Origin: Geosiphon pyriformis
Taxonomy: Eukaryota > Glomeromycota > Glomeromycetes > Archaeosporales > Geosiphonaceae
Direction of reading: 5' to 3'
DNA: 64,000 nucleotides
NCBI GenBank assembly: GCA_016748015.1
Contig: JAAOMT010000201.1
Coordinates: 384,336-448,335 of the forward strand
In this document: in pieces, positions 47,416 to 63,941 of the stretch
Layout of the letters: every line of letters begins with the position of its first letter
Numbering within the stretch: the stretch's first letter is position 1
The notes under the pieces: generated by a model
What the model was told of the DNA's origin: nothing
The model's database searches: none
The model's input: the letters and a program-made list of their open reading frames with translations, nothing else
Made by a program: the position numbers and the translations under genes

Positions 47416-49813
47416 ATGATCAAATTATCAGCGTGGAAAGTTTCCTGCATTCTTTTCATCTTCCTAAGCATTCCTAACATTGAGTTTTTTCCTTCTTGGA
47501 AAAGCCAATCATACTCTACTATATACAAAGACGAGTCGTTAGACTCATGGCCAATTAGAACATATCCCTATTCTGATGGCACTGTAGTAGTATTAAATGA
47601 TGCTGACTATATGGAACTGGTTTTGCATGTAATGTTGGAGATGAAAAAATATCTTTCTTAAGAAGTGGTGCCGTCGTTGATATCACATCATCAGTATTTG
47701 TTTATCAAATCAAAAACCCATTACCTTTTAGAGGGCTTTTTGTCGTGTCAGAAATGCCTCCAAATGGTCCTCCTGTGGCTATATACGACGAAAAAGGACT
47801 TTATAAGCAAAATTGGTCCTTCCTTGTAGGAAATGAAAAGCTCGACTATTTTATTCACACTGTGCTACCCAATAATACGTTTTGGGGACTATATAAAGCA
47901 GGAAATGAAACAGATATGTTTGTTTATCGTGCCGAACTTCCCAAAATATTCCCAGGTAATAGTTTTTGAAAAGTTCATTTGCTTGCTTCATCCTGTTTAA
48001 TTTTGTTTTCAAAATTGGTATTTTTAGACAATCGTTATAACAACCCTATGGTTGTATCTACTTCACCAATGCATGGAGCAAAAACTTAATCATACCTTAA
48101 TATCATATCTATCACCTTTGCACAAAACATCAGCTTATAAACCCAAATATTTCAATATATCAATCGATTGGAGAGATTTCTTTGTTGCCGCAAACTTTTT
48201 CAGGGCTTTCACAGTTTTTTTCAATTAGAAATGATGGGAAAACGGCGCGTGTTCTTGGTAGTACTTTTAATCAAGCTCTCGGGAAATGTTACATAAAAGT
48301 TTTTCAAGGCTCGGCTCTTAAACGAGCCACTCATTGGTATATCAAAAAACTTTTGGCAACTTCCAAACGGTAAGAACTAAAAGATTTGTGAGATTAAACA
48401 AGATTCGCTTATACAAGCTTTTTATTTTTTAGATAGACAAGATAATGAAGTGTTTGTCGGTAGGAAAAAATCATTTGACCCTCTATAACACAATGTTTAA
48501 ATTCGATCTTTAATTAGAATTTGTCATAATTTAACCATTCAGCTTCCTATGATGGCCTTTTACGGCTGACCCCGGAGGGAACATCCTACTTTATAAAACT
48601 TGACACTTCAGAAAAAAGAATTTTTGAATGCCCTCCGAGTCGAATTATAACAAACGATCCCTGTTGACATGACTAAAATACTGAGCTCTAATCAGTATCA
48701 TTTGGATTCTTCAACTCATGTACCACAACTACTGTTTCCGTTGAAAATCTTGTCAACCAATAACGAGTCAGAACGCAGTGCAATAAGGGTGGCGAATGAT
48801 TTGAGCACTCTTATCCAAAATAAATTCATTCCTCAGATTTAGCCTAAATCCCCATTCCTCTTATTTGGACAGTGAATATGGATACCGGCATACGCGTAAG
48901 TTTCTTCTAATATCTTGAACTCAATTTGTCGTCAACTAACAAGTGAGTTTGACTTTCCTAATTTGGACAGCGAATCTTTAGAAAACCTAAAGTCAAAAAT
49001 CTTTTTATTCGCTGGATTTTTCGTTATATCAGCCTTAATCTATTTTTTGTCACGAAAGATGTATTCTAACGTAAGGATTCCATAAATCCGTTATGCCATT
49101 ATTCACTTTTTTTTCTGCATTGGCTAAAATTTTCAATTTATTTAAAGGGAAAAAACTTCATAATATATACCTATAGCTTGCTTTTAATTGACTTGGCATT
49201 GGATATTGTTTTTATTGTAAATAATGGAAAAGATATACCTTTCCTTTTTATTCCAAGGTACTGTAAAAGTTGATTTTTTCTTAAAGATTATCTCACTTAA
49301 TTTAATTGCTGCATATTATTTTTCTAGGGTTCTCGCACTTGCCTTTTCTTTGTTTTTCAATATTTTGGTGCTTACTGAGCTTCAAACTAACAAAACGTCC
49401 CACGAATGGTTTCTAAAATTCACAAAACTGGGTGCTATCCTCACACTGTTATAAGCTGCAAACATTGAAGTCTTAAATTTGTTGTCTTCAGAACTTGCTA
49501 TTTTCTTTGCCACTTTCAGATTCAGGCCATAGGCTGATATTCTGGGTTTGTTGAACATTTGCATTGAAGATATCCCACAATTAATTATCCAGGTACCAAA
49601 AAAATATATTGAGTAATTTTGTTGATTTCACGGAGACTTGCTAATATCTCATTTTTTGAATACTTGCAGGTTCTTTATTACAAATATAGTATTTCATACG
49701 ATATTATCCCATTCCTCGCTCTCATAACAAGTGCTGTGAGTCTTTTAATTAACTTAATTGGCCGTGGATATTATATTGTCATTCAACATAATGCAAAAAA
49801 AAACCTGAATTGA
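47416..49813 (+). pseudogene. Collapsed paralogue of the large ectodomain/multi-pass membrane protein at 59468-62797
   Basis: The signal-peptide end (MIKLSAWKVSCILFIFL... WPIRTYPYSDGTVVVLNDAD) is followed, near 47605-47612, by a junction directly into NVGDEKISFLRSGAVVDIT. That segment aligns with about residue 330 of the intact paralogue, so roughly 260 codons have been deleted. Recognisable exons follow: LPNNTFWGLYKAGNE, an intron from 47956 to 48027, NRYNNPMVVSTSP, SYDGLLRLTPEGTS, LDSEYGYRHTR, the first membrane segment, GKNFIIYTYSLLLIDLALD, and the last exon (49670-49813) after IEDIPQLIIQ. Several in-frame stops (for example LTL-stop-AANIE near 49452) and frameshifts confirm decay. Intron positions match the intact copy. 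Confidence 0.85.
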
Positions 49814-52647
49814 GACTTTATGGCAACATCGTTTAAAAGGCGAAAAATAGCTTTTTTTACAGATTACTTGCAATTTTGGTTAATAAATATCCTATCAATT
49901 AGAAAATTTCAGCAAGTTGAGATCTTCCAATTTATTCATTAAATATAATCAAAATAAGAGGCTTTCATTTTACAACAAAAGAATTTGACACAATTTAAAT
50001 GAAAAAGTAGAATTGTTATCTTTTGCGCATGTGTTTTTTTAATTCAGTCACATCTTTCTCTAGCTCATTTTTAATATTAACCTAAAATTTTTTAAAATCT
50101 GGGAATTTTTAGTTGGGCAGATTCTGTTCAAGTTCTTTTTAGGCAACGTCATCTAAAACTTGATGAGATTTTGGGTACTGATTCCTTTTCCATGCCGTCA
50201 AGAATTTGGATATATTTATAACCTTGCGTGGGTTTCTGAAATGGTTGCTAGCCTAAAAAATAAGCAAGATTTTAGATAATTAAAGAAGATATCAGTTCTA
50301 AAAACATGATGATTATCTAAAACTCGATCATTCGCATGCTCAACATTAGTAAAAACTAATTTTTTTTACCACAAAATAAATTTAATAATTCAATCACGGA
50401 AAAACGTGGATTTATCAAATAATCAAACAGGTTTATCTATTTATGGAAAAAAGAACGGAGTTGAATTTATCGGAGAAAATTACAAAAATCTTTTTAAGAT
50501 TTGTTAAAGAGCGAGTTTTTCGTTTTAAAAAGATAAATCAAATCCAATGGGTTCATTGTTTTTCAGCAATCTAAAATGTGCTCCAAAATTTAAATCTATC
50601 TTTGGCAAAACAAAACAAAAATATCGATTTTGAAATTTAAGTTTCAACACAATTTGTTGCTGAAAGTAAAATATAGCGAATTTAATCCGCTAATAAATTG
50701 GGTGTAATCATGCCAAGAAAAATTTGTACAATGTTGAATTTATTTATCAAAAATTAATGATCGCCTCCCAGTAGCAAATTAATCAAAAATTTAACGCGAA
50801 TACAATTTTGATTGTTTACCTAAAAAGATAAAGAACAGGGCGGATTGGAACGCAAGGACTTTTATTAAAGCGTTTTGAAATACTTTGGTTTCCTATTAAA
50901 TGTGCATATCAATTTTATTATATACTGTCTGTAAAACATTTGAGTACTTTTAAGTAAAATATCTCGATTTGTTAAAATCCAAGATTTCATACAGTCTATT
51001 CATTTAACACTGGATAATGTTTAATGCGCAGGAAAACAAGAATAAAGCAAAAAATTAAAAATGAATAAATTTTCTGAATACATATATCATTAATTTGGAT
51101 TTGGGTTTTAATTTGGTATTAATTGATTAATTTCCCATTGGGGCTATAATATGTTTTTGGGGCGAATAAGAAGACTTGAATGCATGTTCTTAATATTTAA
51201 CCTTTAATTTTTCTCTTAAACTTCCTAATTAATCATAAAACAATATTTGAATGAATATTTGGAATTCATATTGACTAGCATAAGAAATTATGTCATATGC
51301 ATGATTAAATACAAGCTGTAATGCTCCCCTTACAATCGATGCTGTTTTCCTATGGCCTAAAACTTTTTATTGTTTAATGCAAACGGGAAACGGTTTCAAA
51401 AGATTTTTTTCCTCTGGGGTTCCTGCTTATGCTTTGTTAATTTGTGGAAATTGTAAATTGTAAATTGTAACTTGTAACTTGTAACCAACAGTCATACCTC
51501 CGCGATTTTCTTTGTCTGATTACGAATCAATTTTAATTAAAAAATTGAAACAGAAATTTATTATGCCTGCATTTCACTTATAGCCAACATGGGGGCCTGA
51601 ATTTTTTCTTGAAATATAATATTTTCGTTAGTAATAGAGATTTTCGTTACTATTTTGCTTTTGATAAATTCAATCATGTTGAAACAATTTTTAACTTTGA
51701 ATATTGTTTTCATCGCTTCAAATTTGATTTTCAATTTGAAGTCTCGCTTTAAAGCCGAAATGTATGATCATGAATTGAAATATATTGAGATAGTTCGCTC
51801 ATTATATCACGTACAATTTGACCATTCATATTGAGCAATTTGTCTATGAGGCAAAAAATTGCAGCCGCAAAAGAGATTTTCATTGATGAAAATTAAATTT
51901 GAAATGAAAAAGTAGTATATATTCTGCATGCAATATCTCTGAATTTCATATAGTAACAAAAATATGATACTCAAAGAATAATTTACGTTCAAAAAAACTG
52001 GTTATTCATCTTTATGATACGAATACAATCTTCGGCTTCTAGTTTCGTTCTATGAAACCTATAACATATTTAAAGTTTCAAAAGAAATAAACTACATATG
52101 ATATATTCTAAATTTTTAAAAGGTTAATTTCCTGAATTGGAAAACTAGATACTTAACAAATGAAAAAAAAGCAGATTATTCACATTTCGCCAAGATCGGA
52201 TTGGGAAAATTGAAACAAAAAGGTATTTGTGAAATATCCGTGTGAAACTTTAGCTCATATTGAATTAGGTGTCTAAACAATCTATCATGCATAAGGATTA
52301 ATAAGTGTGCCGAAAAGATTACCACCTCGCAGCTGGAAAAAAAACGAGTGATCCAATTTCCGAAGTATTGAATGTAGTTTTATTGGGTTGCAAAGAACAA
52401 ATGGACGCAATAAAAACACTATATATAATGGACCTTCCTTGAGTTTTCAAAAGGTTCCTTAGCATTTCTTTTGATAAGAAAAAAGTTCATACAAGATAAC
52501 TTCCCTTGGTTTCAAAGAGTTCCTAAGACAGAAGCTGCGCTTCATACCCATTTTGAATTCTCACAAATTTGCAAGCCAAATTTACCAACCATTCTTTCAT
52601 TTTTGAATCAATTTAATATCACTTTTCCTACAAAATCGAAAATCAAA
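49814..52647. other. Intergenic; promoter region of the first histidine-brace gene at the right end
   Basis: No supported gene. A coding-like scrap near 50118-50195 reads WADSVQVLFRQRHLKLDEI followed by LGTDS; it may be residue of the adjacent pseudogene or chance. The right end carries a TATA-like element (separate entry). Confidence 0.45.
52419..52428 (+). promoter_or_regulatory. TATA-box-like element
   Basis: CTATATATAA about 220 bp upstream of the ATG at 52648. Position and sequence fit a core promoter; this is inference. Confidence 0.4.
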
Positions 52648-53828
52648 ATGCATTTCAGAACAAATTCAAACGGTCATTTTTTAATTGCTATTATCGGTCT
52701 ATTTGCTCTTTCGACCAATGTTGCCGCACACGGTCGCATGGTAAAAAAAAATAACCATAATTTTTTCTAGTTCTTGGAATGAATCTAACAATTGAACATT
52801 ATTTTTCAACTTAATAGGAACTACCTGCTATTCGTCTTTTGCCTGGTGACGACAATAACGGTTTTACAGTTAGTCGTGGGCCAACGAAAACTCAACCTTG
52901 TGCTAACCTTCCACCGGGCCCTATACCTGATAAGAGTCGGTTCAAAGTTGGTGATTCGGTTCCTATTCAATGGCAAATTACTGCAGCACATCAAGGAAAA
53001 TGCTTCATTGAACTCTCAACTACTGGTTCTGACAGCGATTTCAAGGTTTTGAAGGAATTTGATCACTGTGCTGATGATAACGGTGAATTCAAAGATAACA
53101 TTCCACTGCCAGCAGGTGTTTCATGTGAAAAATGCACAATGAGATGGCGTTGGGAAGCAAAACTTACCAACGAATTATATATCAATTGTGCTGATATTTC
53201 AATTGGTGCCGGATCTGCTGGTTCATCAAGCGGGTCAGGTTCTCCAGGAGCATCAAAATCCCAGGGATCCAAACCTACAGCTACATCAACTCCCACCAAG
53301 ACTGCACCAGCCAACACTCTTTCCCACCCTTCAAGTTTGCCAACAACTACAAATGTTGGTAATTCTCCTACTACTCCTACATCAGTCACAATCACAACTA
53401 CTTCTGTAAAATCGAGTGGCACTCCAGCTGCAACATCCGGTATTCCAACCGGTAAAGGTGGAAGGAAGCATGGAAGAAAACATGGTAAAAGTGGAAAGAG
53501 GCATAGCACTAAACATCGGAGAGGTAAAAAGGGTGGAAAGAAGCATGGAAGAGGTGGAAAAAAGCATAACAAAGGTCAAAAGAAGCATGATACAGGTCTT
53601 GGGGATAATGGAGCCACTAATGAAATCCCAAACGTTGAGAAGCCTGGTGAAAATGGAATCCCAAAAGTTGAAAAACCTGGTAAAAATGGAATCCCAAAAG
53701 TTGAAAAGCCTGGTAAAAATGGAATCCCAAAAGCTGAAAAGCCTGGTAAAAATGGAACCTCAAGAGTTGAAAATTCTGATAACAATGGAATCCCTAAGAC
53801 TGATAGCGAGACCCCCAACTACAAATAG
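52648..53828 (+). CDS. Secreted histidine-brace (LPMO/AA11-like) protein with Lys/His/Gly-rich tail and 11-residue repeats
   Basis: Two exons (52648-52740 and 52818-53828; 77-bp intron) give 367 aa. A signal peptide (residues 1-27, ending STNVAA) is followed directly by HGRM, so mature residue 1 would be His. Further features in mature numbering are Ala-Ala-His62-Gln-Gly-Lys-Cys, RWRWEAK near 113, and ELYINCADIS (Tyr125). His1, an internal His near 60 and a late Tyr in a NCA context is the copper histidine-brace layout of LPMOs, closest in order to AA11. Six Cys fit three disulfides. A Ser/Thr/Pro linker, a GRKHGRKHGKSGKRH-type basic tail and 33-bp/11-aa repeats (NGIPKVEKPGK) follow. It is probably secreted, acting at or in the wall. 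Enzyme activity is unproven; the domain is only about 130 aa, shorter than usual AA11. Confidence 0.8.
53618..53790 (+). repeat. 33-bp in-frame tandem repeat encoding 11-residue units
   Basis: About five copies of a unit encoding NGIPKVEKPGK; the central three are nearly identical and the outer ones diverged. It lies inside the C-terminal tail of the gene 52648-53828. Confidence 0.92.
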
Positions 53829-54600
53829 ACCGATTGAAAAAATATATATTTATTAGAATATTGATATTCTTTGTAAATATTGTAGAAAATCAACTTGGGT
53901 AGTGAGAATTAAGAAATGGGCATTAGACTAAAAATGTCGTAAACTTTTAAATTTTATGCTTGATGCATAGAAAAAAGTCATGACTAGCAGTTCTTTTCAA
54001 GCATCATATACAAAGCTCTTTTTAAAATAATATTTAATAAAGAAATAAAAAGTTTTGCCATGGAGAAATGAATTTGTAATCTTGGGTATTATGATGATGA
54101 TGATGTAAATACATGAATAAATTTTTTTTCTGGGCATTTTTTATATGAGATGAATTTCCAAAAATTTTTTGACCAGTAATTGGGTAAAAGCCAAGTAAGT
54201 AACGTTTTTACAGGTAAATTTTCTTTTTGTTTGATTTAAATTAGTTAACCAATAATACATACAAACATACAAACATATATAGAGTGTGTATATATATGTT
54301 ATTTTACTTTTATTGAAATAACAAAAAAAAATTTTAAAAAAATTAATAATATTATTTTCATTAGATCAAAAATACTGGCTCATCTTTTTATTTATTTATT
54401 TAATATGAAAATGTTGAGTATTTGTTATTACTATTATCATTATTATTAATGGGTAAGTTGAAAAAAAGTTAATATTTTTTTAAAATTTGGGTTCTAAAAA
54501 AAATATTATTGAAAATTCAAATAATAATAATAATAATAATAATTTATTGTTAAATTTTTACTGTTTTTATGTATTTTATCTATTAAAAAGTTTTATTATA
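53829..54600. other. Intergenic, A+T-rich, 3' flank of the preceding gene
   Basis: Short GAT and AAT runs (near 54091-54105 and 54523-54542). No gene. Confidence 0.5.
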
Positions 54601-55882
54601 CAGTCTGGTAAGAAAAAAATTGGAAATATAAAAATAATTACTATGTCTTAACTAATGTACCAAATTACATAAAACAACTATTATTAGAAAATCAAATACT
54701 ATATAATTTTATTAAAAAAATTAATAGGAAATTCTTTTACCATTTGTCTCAATTATCATTTCACAATACTGCCTCATTAATTCTATTAACCCAATTAAGG
54801 TAGATTTAGGAATATCTTGCCACTCTTCCCCCATAAATCTCTCTAATTCACTATGATTTTAAGGCATTCTTTTTTCTACATTCTTTTAACAATAGCCCAA
54901 AGGTTTTCTATTGGGTTTAAGTCAGGACTATTAGATGGCCATCCCAACAATTCAGTTATATTCTCAGTAATAAATTCTTTGGCAAGCTTGCTAGTATGCT
55001 TGGGGTCATTATCTTGTTGAAATCACCAATTATCCCCTAGCATTGCTCTAATTTCAGGTAAGTGGTTACGAAGAATATCTATATAAAATTGAGCATTCAT
55101 TATTTAAACAAAACAGAATAAACTAGTCTTTCCTTTTTCGTAGAAACCCCCCCCCCCCCATGCGAGAATTTTTGTTCGATCTTTAGACATAGGATGAATT
55201 GGTTGAGTACCTTTATGCCAATGTTTACCATGTTTTGAAAAAGTTGAAAAGATGTTTCGTCAGTAAAAACTGTTCTTTTCTAATTGTCGTTCAGGTGTTT
55301 TTTGGCCCATTCTACACGTTTTTACTTATGCTCTTTGGTCAGCATTGGAGTTGCTCTAAAAAGACTTTTTTTATAATTAAGGTTGAATAAATGGTTTTAA
55401 ATAGTAACATGAGAAAAATATATTCCCTTCTTAGCCAACTTTATTGCTAAATATCTAGACAAAACTGAGGAATCTTTATGAATAATATGCCCTAATACTT
55501 TCGAGGCATTTCTCATAATCTTTCTTGACCGATCATTACCACTCCCATGCTTTATTGTTCCTTTTTTTTTGAGTTTTTCTAGGATATTATAGATTGTAGA
55601 AAGGGTTATATTCATTTTATTATGTATTTCTTTCGCCTTTCATATTCCTTGCTTCCAAAAATGTAATACGACTTGTCGTTGCGTTTCTTGCTTTGAAGTT
55701 TGCATTTCAAAGACAAGTTTTAAAAAAAACTATTAGTTAATATACAAGAAAATTTTTTAGAGCTCAGCCACTTACCTAACATTCTGTTTCCATTTTTACT
55801 GTCACAAAACTTACCAAAAATGGTTAAACCAAATACAATCTTTGTAGATTCATATTTTTCCAATTTTTTTCTTACCAGACTG
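54601..55882 (-). mobile_element. Tc1/mariner transposon with intact ends, coding on the minus strand
   Basis: The termini CAGTCTGGTAAGAAAAAAAT (54601 on the plus strand; 55882 on the minus strand) are perfect inverted repeats of about 27 bases and are flanked by TA on both sides, the Tc1 target duplication. The length is 1282 bp, standard for Tc1. The interior transposase is broken. Because the ends are intact, the element could in principle be mobilised in trans; that is inference. Confidence 0.92.
54721..55705 (-). pseudogene. Tc1/mariner DD34E transposase (broken)
   Basis: It starts MQTSKQETQRQVVLHFWKQG, then a TGA, a helix-turn-helix (MNITLSTIYNILEKLKKKG), a basic linker, VFTDETSFQLF (first catalytic Asp), a run of 13 C (55147-55159) within a poly-Gly segment, [17 protein letters not shown] (second Asp), and [11 protein letters not shown] (Glu). 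Exactly 34 residues separate the second Asp from the Glu, hence DD34E. The total span is not a multiple of three, and several TAA/TGA codons interrupt it, some at expected Trp or Gln. It lies wholly inside the intact inverted repeats. Confidence 0.88.
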
Positions 55883-57461
55883 TATATATATATATTTAGA
55901 ATGTAAAAGAATTTTTAATAAAAATAATTTTTAAAATATTATGTTAATTAAATGATAAGATGTAGGAAAAAGTATTTTTATAAAAATAAAATGTAAATAA
56001 TTATTTAAAATAAAAAAAAACCAGGCAATAACTAATAACAATAATTAATTTATCTATAATATAATGAATATATAAATAATAATAATTTTTTTTTTTGAAT
56101 TTAAAAAAAACTTTTTTGATTAATAATTCCGTGCATGTTTTTGTTTATATGACAATTTTTATTTTTATCATATTTATCATATTGTTACACCTCTTTATTT
56201 TTATTATTCAATCCTTTTTTCATGATAGGATAACATTGGATATTAAATGTAATCAAAGGAACATTTTCATGTTTCAAATGAAATTCTTGAATGGTAAAAT
56301 GGAGTCACTGGTTAATATTATCGTTATTTTTAATAATAATAATAATAATAATATTGTTCAACTAAATTTGGAGTCTGAGTGGAAAGTATCTTATTTGAAA
56401 TGTCACTATTATTAGACTATCCGACTCTATTTTTCCAAATTTAGGATTTCATCAAACAAAGTTTTAGCGTGCAACAATTTTAAAACGGCTCTTCCCTTGC
56501 GTATATTTTCTCCGTCATGCAATAAGTTTTAATAAAGAGTATATGCAAGGAGAAATTTTTCTTTCATTAAATTTGTGTATGTTTCCTGAACTTTAAAAAA
56601 TAATAAAAACTTAAATTTATAAGTAATTTTAAATACTAAATCTCATAACAATAGTAACAGGTATAATAATTTAATGATTATGATGATGAGGACGATGACG
56701 ATTACGGATAGAAATGAGGTGCAGGTTCATATCCATATTCAGTATCAATTGGTAGCAAATTAGAATGTCACCGCATTAAAGTATAAATTTTTTTTTGAAC
56801 TATATTACGTATTTTCAAACCCATTTAAAGATTTAAAATAATTCTAATTCTACTAAATCTATTAGCCAAATTCCACATTTATATATTAGTAGTGTCTTTA
56901 ATTTACTCATAGGAATGAGTACCTTGACATGCAAGGTGTACTATTTATCAACTATGCTCATGTTTCAATCATGGCCACTTTTCATCCCAAATAAAAATTA
57001 CCAAAAACGACATTAAAAAATGTTTACATATTGTTCGAATTTATAGACAAAGAAAATGGTTCTGTTAGCCAACTTTCAAACACATTATTTTTATTAACTA
57101 CAATATTTTTAATTTAATATTTGTATCACAGATTAATGAAATTGAAACCATATGGTTAAAAACTTTGAATGTGATTCATTTTAACCCACATTATGAAAAG
57201 GGATTCGCATGTCCATACAATCTTTTATTAACGGATCTTAACAAAGCCATACATTTTAAAGATAAAACAAAATTATTCTATAGATTTTTGAAATCTTAGG
57301 GGTTGCAATTAAATTTCTTCAATGAAAAAATTAATCTACAACCGTTTATCTAGGCTAAGGGACTGGTTGTTTCATATGGGCAAAATTTTAGCATAAATAA
57401 ACACTTTTGGTTTCTGGCTGAAATGAGCTTTATCAATTTTCGTCAACTTTAATTAAATAAA
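55883..57461. other. Intergenic DNA between Tc1 element and second histidine-brace gene
   Basis: A+T-rich. A short minus-strand reading NLLPIDTEYGYEPAPHFYP ending at a stop near 56707 looks protein-like but has no neighbouring exon. Nothing else is supported. Confidence 0.45.
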
Positions 57462-58137
57462 ATGTATTCATTTAAATACACAAAAATTTTTATATTGTTT
57501 TCAACAATTCTTTTTTTGCTAGTTACAGACAATGTTTACGGGCAAGGTCAAATGGTTAGCATTATAAATTATTCCGTCTCAGAATAAAAAAAACTTTATG
57601 CTCAAGTACAATTTATTGATTTTTCTACTTTTAAAACAGTTAACACCAATACCTCGTAGCCCAACGACTAATATTCAGAGTGGATCCCTTGCTCATGGTC
57701 CGACTACACTTCAACCATGTAATGGATATCCTCCCGCTAAAATCATCACTAATAGTTATTCTTCTAACTCTGTAATTCCTCTTGAATGGGAAATTTTTGG
57801 TGACCATCAAGTTCAAGGCAATTGCTTTGTAGAACTTTCTATCACTGAAGATGACACAAATTTCATCTCACTAAAGCAAATTCCTGACTGTGCTAGTTCT
57901 AATCAAAAATTTACCCAGGATGTCCCGCTCCCGTCAGACGTTTCTTGCGAAAGATGTACTTTAAGATGGCGATTGGAAGTGGAATCAACTAAAGAATCGT
58001 TTATTGATTGTGCTGATATTTCAATTCTTGCGAACTCTGAAGAAAATGTAACTTTCCAGTCTATCAAACCTAAAAGTCGAGGGAGAAATCACACAAAAGG
58101 TCGACATCACAAAAAAGGAAAACATCGATCGACATAG
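57462..58137 (+). CDS. Divergent paralogue of the histidine-brace protein, N-terminal His replaced by Gln
   Basis: Two exons (57462-57554 and 57640-58137; 85-bp intron, GTTAGC donor) give 196 aa. The signal peptide (1-27, ending TDNVYG) is followed by QGQM where the paralogues have HGRM, so mature residue 1 would be Gln, likely pyroglutamate. The core keeps the family pattern (GPTTLQPCNGYPP; DHQVQGNCFVELS with a two-residue insertion; VSCERCTLRWRLEVE), but the final motif reads ESFIDCAD, Phe for Tyr. It ends in a basic NHTKGRHHKKGKHRST tail like the first paralogue. Loss of His1 should abolish a copper histidine brace, so this copy is probably non-catalytic or repurposed. The intron lies exactly after the Met codon, as in the other copies. 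Confidence 0.78.
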
Positions 58138-58747
58138 TCAATGAATCAGTTACAATATATACAATTTAGAATGTACACTACTTTTTTATTTATCTAGCTT
58201 TTATTTATTTATACATTCATAAGTTTTTGTGTAAATTTCAATTTGGTTTATTTATCTTTTGAAGAAATAAAATAACTGATTATGAATGATAAAATATGTT
58301 CACTAAAGAATGTTTTTCTATAAATTCATATCCTGAGAAAATTCTCTTTCACCATCAAAAATTTGGTATAAAAATTTGATTCAATTGCAAGTCTCAATCA
58401 AAACTTCACATCAGTTAAGTAAAGATTTAAAGTTCAGAGCACATTTTAGATTGCTGAAAAACAATAAACCATTGGATTTAATTTATGGCTCTTTAACGAA
58501 TCTTGAAATTTTTTGATTTTATTGGATAAATTCAGCTCCGTTCTTTTTGCCACAAGTAAATAAAACATGTTTTGATTAGTTGATTAAATTTCATTTTTTC
58601 ATTGTTGAATTATTAAATTGGTTTTGTGGTAAAAAATTTTGAGCATGTGAGTAATCGAGGTTTAACGAAAAGCTGTTTGCAATATTAGACGTTCATTATG
58701 TTTTAATTAGAACTGATGTTTTCTTTAATCATCTAATATCTTGCATA
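58138..58747. other. Intergenic, 3' flank
   Basis: No gene or repeat recognised. Confidence 0.5.
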
Positions 58748-59227
58748 CAGGGGGTATTAAAAATATTGGACACTTTTATAATATGTTACATAAAAGAACT
58801 AACTTATGAATCGTTAATTTATTATTATTATATTAAAATACATGATAGTATTTTGTTTGACCCCCATTTGCTTCAAGAATAGCTTGAAATCAACGTGGCA
58901 TAGACTTGATCAAATTACGATAGTAATTTACAGGTATCGCATCCCATTCTTCCTTAACCCACTGTTCCAATTGTACAATATTTGAGGGTTGTGAATTACG
59001 TTGACGAAATTTAACTTCAATATATGACCAAAAATTTTCTATTGGAGTAATATTAGGACTTTGTGCTGGCCAAGGAAGTAATTCAACATTTGAAGAGGTA
59101 AGAAAAGAACACGCGACTTTTGATGTGTGGATTGGTGCATTGTCTTCCTGAAAAAAAAACTTTTTTTTAGTTTTTTTTGCATGAAGTTTTACCGTAGGAA
59201 TTGCAAAATTAGCCAAGGTTTTGCAGT
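58748..59227 (-). mobile_element. Second Tc1/mariner element, truncated at an adapter sequence
   Basis: One end is visible: TA then CAGGGGGTATTAAAAATATT at 58748, typical of Tc1-type ends. The minus strand carries the C-terminal part of the transposase. The other end is missing: the sequence stops at 59227, where a synthetic 19-mer begins. Its end sequence differs from that of the element at 54601-55882, so it is a distinct family. Confidence 0.8.
58833..59227 (-). pseudogene. C-terminal fragment of a DD34E Tc1/mariner transposase
   Basis: It reads FFQEDNAPIHTSKVACSF (second catalytic Asp), SPNITPIENFWSYIE (Glu; 34 residues between them), VKEEWDAIPVNYYRNLIKSM, then a TGA at 58892-58890 where Arg is expected, and QAILEANGGQTKYYHVF to a natural stop at 58835-58833. 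The N-terminal DNA-binding half and first Asp are absent because of the break at 59228. The peptide running through the break includes LSLIHI, a translation of adapter sequence. Confidence 0.82.
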
Positions 59228-59246
59228 AGATGTGTATAAGAGACAG
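59228..59246. other. Tn5/Nextera mosaic-end adapter sequence (assembly artefact)
   Basis: The 19 bases AGATGTGTATAAGAGACAG are the Tn5 mosaic end used in Nextera tagmentation libraries. On the plus strand it translates within DVYKRQ and on the minus strand as LSLIHI, both well-known contamination signatures. The Tc1 element is cut exactly here. Sequence left and right of this point may not be contiguous in the genome. Confidence 0.93.
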
Positions 59247-59467
59247 GCTAGATACCGTCTCAGAAAACCCGCGCAAGGTTATAAATGTATCCAAATTCAT
59301 AACAGCATGCACATGTAACGGTGTTTCAAGTTCGGATATTGAGTGTTTAGGAGCCAATATATATATAATAAAACATTATTAACCGAGGTTAGGATTTTGA
59401 AAGATCCCAAAACTTCGAAATTTCCTAATTTTTTAACTGAACAAGACGCAGGTCGTCACTTTTGAGA

Positions 59468-62400
59468 ATGCAAGTTAAAATTTTACTACAGTTTTTTTTC
59501 CAGCTCATATTTAGTTTGCCTTTTTGCATCGGTGATGGATATAAGTCAATAGTTTACCCCGAAAATAAATTCCCAAGTTCATCCCCTATTAGAATATATT
59601 ATTATTCTGAAGGAACTGTAGTGTTAGAATTAGAACCTTATATTCCTCCAAATTCTTATCCAAATCGTGTTCTCAGGGTTTTTTCAGCAAATGGCACACT
59701 TAATTCATTTGAAGTGAAAAATCCCACAAAAGGAATTTCAATAGATCTTGGGTTTTACCCTTTATCACCGGGATATTTATTTTTGGTTTATACCAATACT
59801 TCCATTCCATCCGAACCTTTCTTTTACCCTAATTATGGAATGCTAGTTTCTTTAGATGGAAGAATTCTGCAAAAGTATTTCTGTTTAACAAAAGATAGAG
59901 TCAAAAAAAGTCTAATTTCTCTGTTTATTCACCTTTCTCTAATTACAACAAAAATGTTTCTCTAAAGTGATTTAGATTTAGGTATTTCAAACCAGTACAG
60001 CAACTCTTTAACGACGAATACTGAACCTGATCAGAATTTTATGTGGTCAACTCTAACACCAAAGCACAATGAAATTCGATGGACAGTTTTCCAAGCGCCG
60101 TAAGTCTAAAAAGAACAACGTAAAACATTTATTTTTATAGAAAGATTGTTTGACCATTTTTTTCAAAAGAATAGGAGCCCAAAGAATCAGGCTCTTACAA
60201 AAATTTGTGGAGGGATTATTTTGACAACGTTAAATATTACTAGTCATGCATCTTTTCCCACTGTAGATGGTGGTTATGGAGTGGCATTTATTGTGGAAAA
60301 AGCGGGATCCAGTAACAAGACAACTATTAATCCCTACACAAAAGGGATTGCAAGAAACGTAATAATCTCGGCATACGTTACTTTTTTGGACCCTAATGCA
60401 ACAAAATTTGGACAAAATTTCTTAATTTACACCACCAGTCAACCGGCAGCGCGTGAAGGTTTACGATTCTGCTTCCCAAAAGTCTTGGGAAATGGATTTG
60501 AATGTACAGTTGGTGACGATCGTATTTCTTTTCTAAGAAACGGAGCTGTAATTGATATAACACATTTAGAAACCCGGGATCAAATAAACAGACCATTACC
60601 TTATGGTGGAATTTTGGTCGACACTCATGTGACTGACCTTCAAAATTTTTCATCTGCGTTAATTTATGATGATAATGGCAATCCCAAACAGCAATGGCCA
60701 TTTCCTGTATCAAAAGGATATCTGTATAATTTTATGTATGACATCCTGCCAAATAATACCTTTTGGGGAGCATATAAGGAACTGCATAGTAATAATATTA
60801 CTCTTTATATTCAGGATGTCCCTAAATTTTTCAAAGGTAAGTCTTCATTTTCGGTGAATTTTTAAGAATTGCCTTTCGAATCATAAAGTACTGAACATTT
60901 TTTTAGATAATGGTTATAACAATCCAATGATTGAATCAACGACACCACCACGAAACTCAAAAGTTTCCTTGGAAAGTAAATTAATTAGCGTCAAATATAT
61001 TCAGCCAATCACCACGTCGATTAAGAATATCTCAATTTATCAGTTCAAAGGAGCTGATCCGATTCTGAGACAAACTTTTCCCTCCCAGTCCCAGTATTGC
61101 TCATTAAGTGATGATCAAAAATCAATAAACATCAAAGTGTTGAGCAGTACTTTTAATCAACCAAATGGCAGTTACTTTGTCATTATCGACAACAATTTCG
61201 TGAAAACTCGTTTGCTCGACGAGCCTTTGTTTGGCATCAAGAAAAATGACTGGATAATTACCAGAGGTGAACTATTATTTCGTGCTATTCCAATTAATAT
61301 ACTTGTATTAATTTATTCCTTATTTTTTTGAACAGATGAAGAGGAAAATGTTTTTGCGGGTAAGTTGATTCTTCTCAAAATATTCAAATTTCAACTTAAA
61401 AATTAACCAATATTCTTTAGGTTCTTTTACCGGCTTGGTTCGATTAACTCCGGATGGTTCAAAATTTTTTCGAGGTCTTTCTACCAATGCCGCCCGAGAG
61501 TTCATTAATCAACTAAAAGTTGAATTAGCACAGACCATTCCGGTGGACATTTCCAGAATATCAACTTCAGATCAACATCAAGAAGATCCTTCTTCGCCAT
61601 TTTCCCAAACACTACTAAAATTCACAATTTTGTCGACCCAGGACTCTTCTCAACCTAATTCTTTCAAACTATCCCAAGATCTAAAAACTCTTATTGAAAA
61701 TAAGGGAATTACACAACTTAGCTTGAATCCTCAATCTTCTTTATTGGATAGTGATTTCGGATTCCGGTCAACACGTAAAAATCAAAAAAATCTCAATTTT
61801 GTTTTCATCAATCTAAAAAGATAGATTCTAAGTAAAATTTTATTTTGACAGCGAACATATGGGAAAATTTAAAATTAAAGATCATTATTCTTGGAGTATT
61901 CATTATATTTTTATTGATCGTTTACATTTTGGCAAGGAGGAGATTTCCAGAGGTAAGCTAATGGCGTTTAACAGTGACTTTAGTCGAAATTTATTAAAAA
62001 TGCTCTTTATCTAGGGAAACAACTTTGCTCTAATAAATCAAGTCTTAGTTTTGTTTGATCTGGCCATGGATGTCACCTTTATTCTATATAATGGGAAAGA
62101 TGTTAAAAGTTTATTTTTACCAAGGTACATAAAAATCTCATTTTGTGTCGCTCAAAATATTCTTATCTTAACTTTTCGAAAAACTTTCAGTATTATAATT
62201 TTAGCTGTCGTGGTGACTTTCAATTCCGGTTTAGCAGTTTACATTTTAGTAAACGAAATCAAAAGAAACAAAAATTGTGTTGACTGGTTCCAAGAATATA
62301 CTAAACCAGCCGCTATGATTACTTTAACTTCCGCTGCTAACATTGAATCTCTTAAACTGCTCTCCTCACGTTTTGCTGGCTTAAAAATTTTCAGTTTACC

Positions 62401-62797
62401 TTTATCTCCTACGGCCATTCAATTGATTTTTTGGGGTGGATTCATAAATTTGTTCCTCGAAGATATTCCACAATTGATTATTCAGGTAGGAAAAATAATC
62501 AGTCGGTAATTTACTATTAATTAATTCAATTACTAACTTCGACCCATTCATTTCAAGATTCTTTATTATAATTGGAGCATTTCTTATGATATAATTCCAT
62601 TTCTCAGTCTTGTGACTGCCGTGCTCAGCGTCCTATGTAACATTATTGGACGCATTTATTACCTTATAATTGAACTTTATGTGAAACCAAACACATTTAG
62701 TAGAAAGATTGCTAATTACAATGATACATTAACACTTGAGGAAGAGCAAAGATCACCCATTCTTTTAGATCCACAATATACTGAACCGATGGATTGA
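59468..62797 (+). CDS. Large secretory-pathway membrane protein: long ectodomain plus C-terminal multi-pass domain, 10 exons
   Basis: Exons: 59468-59874, 59968-60099, 60175-60836, 60907-61266, 61336-61359 (24-nt microexon), 61421-61774, 61852-61952, 62015-62124, 62191-62485 and 62558-62797. They give 2685 nt and 894 aa with consistent phases; several splice sites are confirmed by the same boundaries in the pseudogene at 47416. A signal peptide (1-22) precedes an ectodomain of about 630 residues with many N-x-S/T sites. TM1 is about 653-673 (IIILGVFIIFLLIVYILARR). Further segments are near 684-703 (LFDLAMDV), 718-738, 790-806 and 825-851, with EDIPQLIIQ at 807-815. This resembles a family expanded in Rhizophagus, of unknown function. 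The E-x-x-PQL-x-x-Q segment recalls XK-type scramblases, only as a hint. The start is the first ATG after the upstream stop. Confidence 0.82.
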
Positions 62798-63366
62798 TGG
62801 ATAAAAAATTATCAGAGAAAAACAGTATAATATATTTTAAAAGTCGCTCAGTTTTTAAACTTGAATAAGATTTTTTTGAGATTACCGTAAGTGTAAATAA
62901 TAAATAAATTTCTTTTCAGTATCAAGGCAAGTTCAATTAAAAGTATTTAAATACCAGCTATCAAGTAAATTTATTTTGATTTAATAGTTTTAATTTCAAG
63001 TTAGAAAATATTAATTTGCTACTTTAGAATTAGTCATTAAGAATTAGTGAAAAATTAAAAAACATTTTAAATTTTAAATAACTCCCAGACCTTTGATCTG
63101 GGCTTTTTAAGAAATCTTAATCAAATTTACCAATAAATTATTGAATAAAATGTGGATTTGGTTTCCCGGCTATTACTATTAAGGAAATTCATCATGTGAA
63201 AACAAAGGGAAAGGGGATTGAGTTCGTAAACCAGCTTTTGTATTCATAATCATGATTCCGGTGAGGTTTAATGAACTATTTCGATTTTTTTAACAATCCC
63301 TTTTCCATGATTATTTTTGATTTCAAAAGGTATTAATCAATAAGCCAGTTTGAAAAAAAATGTACA
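62798..63366. other. Convergent intergenic region
   Basis: It separates the 3' ends of the convergent genes at 59468-62797 and 63367-63941. No further feature. Confidence 0.5.
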
Positions 63367-63941
63367 TCAAGTGATCTTGATGTCAGCACAATTAATGTAG
63401 AGTTCTTCCGTGGTTTTGGCTAGCCATCGCCATCTTAAAGTACATTTATCACACGTTTTTCCAGCCGGTAATTCAACACGTCGACTAAAATTACCAGTTT
63501 CGTTTGCACAACTGGGTAATTTTTTTAGAATTTTGAAATCCCCGCTGTCTCCAGTAGTAGATAACTCGACAAAACATTTGCCTTGATGTGCTGCTGTAAT
63601 TTCGAATAAGATCTGAATACTACTACCCGATTTATATGTGTTATCGGCGGGAACTGACTTTGAAGGAAGATTGGCACAAGGGTAAGTTGTGGCTGGCCCT
63701 TTGCTGATTGTAAATCCATTATCTTCGTCACCAGAAGGAAGACGAGTTATTGGTATTTTCTATAAAATGAAATTTGTTTAAAATTTGATATTTTCGTAAG
63801 AAATTATTTGAGTTAAACTTTTTAATTATAATTTGACATGCTTACCATACGACCATGACTCATGACTTGTCCAGCAAGCACTAGCAAACTGTAGAAAACA
63901 AATAAGAAATAACTAGAGAAATTTTTGTTTGATAAATTCAT
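63367..63941 (-). CDS. Secreted histidine-brace (LPMO/AA11-like) protein, compact form
   Basis: Minus strand, two exons (63941-63846 and 63759-63367; 86-bp intron with GTAAGC donor) give 162 aa. The signal peptide (1-28, ending GQVMS) is followed by HGRM, giving mature His1. The core follows the first paralogue closely: RLPSGDEDNGFTISKGPATT, EITAAHQGKCFVELSTTG, AGKTCDKCTLRWRWLAK, and ELYINCADIKIT at the very end. It lacks the linker, basic tail and 11-residue repeats of the copy at 52648. All presumed brace residues (His1, internal His, Tyr) and the six Cys are present. It is predicted to be secreted and copper-binding; substrate unknown. Only 59 bp of upstream sequence lies in the window. 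Confidence 0.8.

Follow-up and report, generated by a model that had tools for sequence, protein, structure and literature searches.

Compact secreted proteins with a monooxygenase-like fold in Geosiphon pyriformis, two of them with a complete set of copper-site residues

Three genes, here called A, B and C, lie in a 64,000-nt stretch of contig JAAOMT010000201.1 of Geosiphon pyriformis (the window, meaning the whole stretch analyzed; GC content 26.5%; positions are window positions) and belong to a family of at least five genes for secreted proteins with a compact fold of the lytic polysaccharide monooxygenase (LPMO) class. Two members, A and C, carry all of the copper-site residues, and three do not. 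Judging from their sequences and from a structure model, we put the probability at about one half (roughly 0.5) that A and C work as copper monooxygenases on chitin in the fungus's own wall, with the other members reusing the fold without its histidine brace.

Results

A, B and C are real paralogues. Splicing and translation of the window gave a hydrophobic signal peptide in each, followed by a common domain of 134 residues, and each gene is interrupted by a single phase-0 GT-AG intron at the same place, after codon 4 of the presumed mature protein (Table 1). Six Cys (C32, C66, C88, C107, C110 and C128) are invariant in an alignment of the five known members. These features bear out the first-pass annotation of this DNA, which had described three paralogues with a signal peptide and a domain of about 130 residues containing six Cys. 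A and C are 57-58% identical to each other, while B is 42% identical to either. The chains end differently: C stops 4 residues past its NCAD motif and has no tail, B carries a short, basic tail of K, R and H, and A continues with a region rich in S, T and P, then one rich in K, H and G, and a repeat of 11 residues encoded by 5.3 copies of a 33-bp unit (53619-53794).

When the second exon of C was run against the genome that the window comes from (124.7 Mb in 406 contigs; all counts are lower bounds), five loci matched at E ≤ 0.001, namely A, B, C and two on other contigs, L003 and L005. With the L003 protein as query, the same five came back, together with three weak ones (E 0.7 to 2.2) that were not counted as members. 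In both L003 and L005, the signal peptide and domain occupy one open frame, and the intron of A, B and C is not there; the match between the two loci crosses one TAA in the tail.

The full copper set of His1, His62 and Tyr125 occurs in A and C only (HGRM, AAHQGKC, ELYINCAD), where the second His and the Tyr correspond to residues 71 and 133 in the solved AA11 chain 7p3u (counted by hand). The corresponding motifs of B are QGQM, GDHQVQGNC, RWRL and ESFIDCAD, giving Gln1, a retained second His and Phe125. L003 and L005 also begin with Gln1 and, in the five-member alignment, keep the Tyr and have lost His62 (NALEGNC and KALEGNC), which brings the members with altered brace residues to three of five. 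The motif series initially proposed for the cluster (N-terminal His, AAHQGKC, RWRW, ELYINCAD) is therefore complete in A and C, but the claim of three copper-site proteins fails at B, which is without His1 and Tyr. The brace was presumably lost rather than gained. Since V-x-A, V-x-S or V-x-G stands ahead of position 1 in all five members, signal cleavage directly before that position is favored, and the V-A-A ahead of the His in A fits the -3,-1 rule. In both A and C, HGRM follows the predicted signal peptide, so that cleavage would leave His1 at the mature N-terminus.

Profile and structure comparisons place the family among LPMO-like proteins. All three window genes score above the curated cut-off of Pfam LPMO_10 (PF03067; 23 bits), with 31.7 bits for A, 28.0 for B and 36.1 for C, and the three-gene finding is thus more than chance; L003 (14.2 bits) and L005 (22.6 bits) score below it. 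Together with the predicted fold, these scores support the LPMO-like label that the genes had first been given. Among solved structures, AA11 chains took ranks 1-3 in one sequence search and ranks 1-2 in a profile search, where AA15 came third; by structure AA15 came first, in a near tie with AA11, and its LPxGVTCxxC motif was compared alongside the fold. AA11 is accordingly the nearest solved family by sequence, and AA15 is about equal by fold. NF043005 (SCE4755 family polysaccharide monooxygenase-like, 146 positions) matches all five members (best 6.1e-9), with C at 34.9 bits against a curated cut-off of 75. In a genome search the same profile gave A 33.2 bits and C 30.1 bits, matched one BIM1-like locus weakly and left B, L003 and L005 unmatched. 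Beyond this genome, tblastn confirmed none of the pattern matches, which numbered 5 and 105 in two scans of a prokaryote genome collection and 8 and 99 in two scans of a viral collection; a single plasmid match, at E 5, was disregarded. Fas_alpha_ACP had no match in the genome, in a search whose control matches were two bacteria, none over cut-off, and whose sensitivity for the fungal gene is unproven. Together with the low GC content and the genome size, this absence is compatible with an arbuscular mycorrhizal fungus, though short of proof.

The structure model of the second exon of C has an LPMO fold, with a beta sandwich that superposes on solved LPMOs. The domain is indeed markedly shorter than AA11, as had been suggested from its length. 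7p3u has 142 residues to the end of its NCAD strand and 201 in all, compared with 134 to that strand here, and the 59 residues that follow the strand are absent: C stops, and A and B continue as a tail, which in A is of low complexity. Small size alone is unremarkable because 5aa7, a solved chitin-active LPMO domain that we take to be a bacterial AA10, has only 142 residues (15.5 kDa) and NF043005 has 146 positions.

The two brace-less paralogues outside the window differ from each other by a dN (nonsynonymous divergence) of 0.17 and a dS (synonymous divergence) of 1.17 in their domains, and the resulting dN/dS of 0.14 points to purifying selection on the domain without a brace. Seven of the other nine domain pairs have a dN/dS of 0.31-0.42 at dS 1.5-2.2, and dS is saturated in A-C and A-L005. 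The tails of L003 and L005 contain units with the pattern QR[DNT][PA]Cx3C and basic residues after it, four in L003 (three of them identical in core) and one in L005; the [KR]R sites number seven in the L003 tail and five in that of L005. Such units lie within a 159-bp repeat of L003 (2.4 copies at 97%), and the L003 tail has the sequence pattern of Kex2-processed repeats, that is, a signal peptide and near-identical repeats between [KR]R sites; that of L005, with its single unit, does not. Just past the stop codon of L003, the spacer-like VVPIEIPS recurs in another frame, as if the array had once been longer. Many Kex2-processed repeat proteins are reported from Rhizophagus irregularis in PMC6339444, whose main text does not contain the words "domain", "pfam" or "lytic", and a literature search aimed at it returned no report of an LPMO joined to a Kex2-cut propeptide.

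Table 1. Positions of the genes and other features discussed. Entries beginning with G000 lie elsewhere in the same genome; all others are window positions.
Feature	Position	Strand	Description
Gene A exon 1	52648..52740	+	Signal peptide of 27 aa, then HGRM; phase-0 GT-AG intron after
Gene A exon 2	52818..53828	+	LPMO-fold domain with H62 and Y125, then tail and stop; product 367 aa
Gene B exon 1	57462..57554	+	Signal peptide, then QGQM; without His1
Gene B exon 2	57640..58137	+	LPMO-fold domain; GDHQVQGNC, second His kept; Phe for Tyr; product 196 aa
Gene C exon 1	63941-63846	-	Signal peptide of 28 aa, then HGRM
Gene C exon 2	63759-63367	-	LPMO-fold domain with H62 and Y125; without tail; product 162 aa
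L003	G000:C354:338008-338949	-	Intronless brace-less paralogue; four Cx3C units
L005	G000:C325:9682-10062	-	Intronless brace-less paralogue; one Cx3C unit
TM1	47607..49876	+	Paralogue of TM2, upstream of A
TM2	59464..62797	+	Signal peptide, large ectodomain, hydrophobic C-terminal segments; adjoins C
Transposase gene remnant (Tc1-like element)	58745-59227		DDE_3 match; between B and TM2
Tn5/Nextera mosaic-end adapter	59228..59246	+	Exact 19 bases; breaks Tc1-like element
BIM1-like locus	G000:C366:1521268-1521913		PF20238 match
BIM1-like locus	G000:C295:760891-761487		PF20238 match

Two genes for putative membrane proteins, TM1 and TM2, accompany A and C. Six of the eight TM2 exon queries match the TM1 region (47.6-49.9 kb) in order at 29-62% identity, and exons e1 and e6 have no match there at E 1e-3. 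A rough concatenation of TM2 without exon 2 has four hydrophobic peaks of at least 1.5 near its C-terminal end (Kyte-Doolittle scale), no Pfam family above cut-off and no match to PF11915. Counting itself, the main ectodomain exon of TM2 matches 27 places in the genome, one of them in the window at 47607-47957; none is on the contig of either L003 or L005. The arrangement looks like a local duplication, in a single event, of a unit made up of a TM gene and an LPMO-fold gene.

Between B and TM2, the assembled sequence contains an artifact. The 19 bases at 59228-59246 match the Tn5/Nextera mosaic end exactly, and they interrupt a Tc1-like element whose transposase remnant is presumably of Tc1/mariner type. 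Exact copies of the adapter number 99 across the genome (48 forward, 51 reverse), whereas its reversed control occurs in neither orientation. A search with the Tc1-like element, in which 40 of 99 candidates were scored, gave 41 matches: 39 at other scored places (92-97% identity), every one of which stops at query 481-491, with the adapter at query 488, and two more comprising the window itself and one short 81-base match. All 11 other copies of the element that were read past that point continue differently, and two soon reach N. Because the junction sequence is artificial, the assembly alone is no proof that TM2 and C adjoin A and B; that this linkage is nonetheless real is favored by the presence of both the TM1-A and the TM2-C pair on one contig.

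Discussion

Most likely, A and C would each bind one Cu via a histidine brace and oxidize wall material of the fungus itself, either chitin or soluble chito-oligosaccharides, an activity that could lead to wall remodeling in growth, fusion or root entry. The long S/T-rich and lysine/histidine-rich tail of A probably anchors this protein in the wall. In B, L003 and L005, Gln1 is expected to cyclize and so block the amine, and these members would be unable to form the brace; their fold may have been reused for binding or display. As an extra possibility, the Kex2-type sites after the fold in L003 and L005 would free a small Cx3C peptide.

Several observations weigh against this interpretation. 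A genome-wide search with the LPMO_10 profile matches only A, B and C, and not L003 or L005. The model of C rests on three sequences and has a mean pLDDT (predicted local distance difference test) of 67, with two of the five models below 43; it does not include His1, which is on the other exon, and 24 of its first 25 residues have a pLDDT below 50. A second model, headed by A, was poor, at a mean pLDDT of 55.5, and was left out of the structure search. With the segment after the NCAD strand missing, the substrate face may differ from that of AA11. In C, an alternative signal cut, VLA|GQ, is possible, and mature C would then be without His1. Finally, selection on A and C is not measurable because their synonymous sites are saturated.

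Alternatively, the LPMO fold may act at the surface as a ligand by which self is told from non-self or contact with the plant is made; a TM protein would be its partner and copper chemistry would be dispensable. This analogy draws on Neurospora, in which the fusion checkpoint of the AA11 enzyme CWR-1 does not require its catalysis and the linked cwr-2 encodes a protein with eight predicted transmembrane regions (PMC9550227). The three members without some brace residues would fit such a role, as would the membrane-protein gene adjoining C and its paralogue upstream of A, but we consider it unlikely: TM2 resembles no Pfam family, PF11915 included, in the concatenation described above, and the association with TM genes amounts to one local duplication, part of it across the adapter junction, that is not repeated on the contigs where L003 and L005 lie. 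A search for DUF3533 (PF12051) was empty, which is uninformative on CWR-2, whose domain is given as PF11915 in PMC9550227.

Somewhat less likely again is that the proteins are small secreted effectors with a worn LPMO fold as their scaffold, which would bind a plant or fungal partner non-enzymatically and would include the Cx3C peptides of the brace-less copies. Retention of the brace residues by A and C means that this explanation fails for the family as a whole, and a match to NIS1 arose only at a level flagged as merely a common arrangement; no relevant literature was found on NIS1 with an immunoglobulin-like structure.

Copper handling without oxygenase activity, in which A and C would bind surface Cu and hand it on, as is thought for BIM1/X325, and the K/H-rich tail of A would be an extra binder of metal or polyphosphate, seems improbable to us. 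The complete brace residues of A and C and the basic, His-containing tails of A and B are compatible with it, but the axial Tyr is as in AA11, whereas Asp is reported at the copper of X325 (PMC10952591). The BIM1-like signature is also wanting: at E values up to 10, PF20238 finds nothing in A, B or C, and its four exon-level matches in the genome, three of them over cut-off, fall at two separate loci (Table 1) that are likely the X325-type copper proteins of this genome. An assignment of A, B and C to BIM1/X325 was rejected on these profile results; that no BIM1/X325 structure appears among the 50 structural matches listed for the model of C was not counted as evidence.

Equally improbable is a composite scenario in which the copper site was dismantled stepwise with the fold kept (two copies intact, a third lacking His1 and Tyr, and two more lacking both His), the brace-less fold leads a Kex2-cut Cx3C precursor, and the window genes with their TM neighbors form a recognition locus like cwr-1/cwr-2, in a fungal group for which no basis of fusion compatibility is known to us.

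For symbiosis, the family hints at possible remodeling of wall chitin by the fungus itself, or at recognition. Wall-degrading enzymes are reported to be few in arbuscular mycorrhizal fungi. Neither AA9 nor AA10 turned up in a survey of Gigaspora rosea (PMC4771724), and in PMC11134847 AA11 is described as significantly contracted in the ancestor shared by Mucoromycota, Mortierellomycota and Glomeromycota, with AA enzymes overall slightly more numerous in Glomeromycota. On this account, tables of carbohydrate-active enzymes in the literature may already list these genes as AA11. Literature searches, which covered listings and passages of some of the papers, found no description of the family formed by A, B, C, L003 and L005. 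Its two complete and several altered copies offer a natural series for asking what an LPMO fold does without copper.

Among known systems, AA11 (4mah; 7p3u) is the closest: it gives the best sequence match, its second His, axial Tyr (in A and C) and several Cys align with those found here, it shares the LPMO fold and secretion, and C-terminal tails are common in it. Unlike AA11, the Geosiphon proteins have no 59-residue segment after the NCAD strand, three of five copies are without some brace residues, and there is an extra CxxC (C107, C110) that is partnerless in the AA11 alignments shown. AA15, represented by 5msz from Thermobia, differs in its 195-residue chain and in a sequence match confined to short stretches. 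5aa7 is similarly compact, but is 18% identical in the structural alignment and belongs to a different AA family. NF043005 is compact as well and matches every member, but C lies far under its cut-off and the family is used for bacteria and archaea; no paper was found under the name SCE4755 family. BIM1/X325 belongs to the same LPMO-like histidine-brace class (PMC10952591), but differs in the PF20238 signature that A, B and C do not have. CWR-1 of Neurospora likewise pairs a secreted LPMO-type domain with a linked polytopic membrane protein (PMC9550227); the membrane partner here shows no homology by Pfam, and the resemblance does not go beyond layout. Set beside these systems, the Geosiphon family refines a known class and does not constitute a new one.

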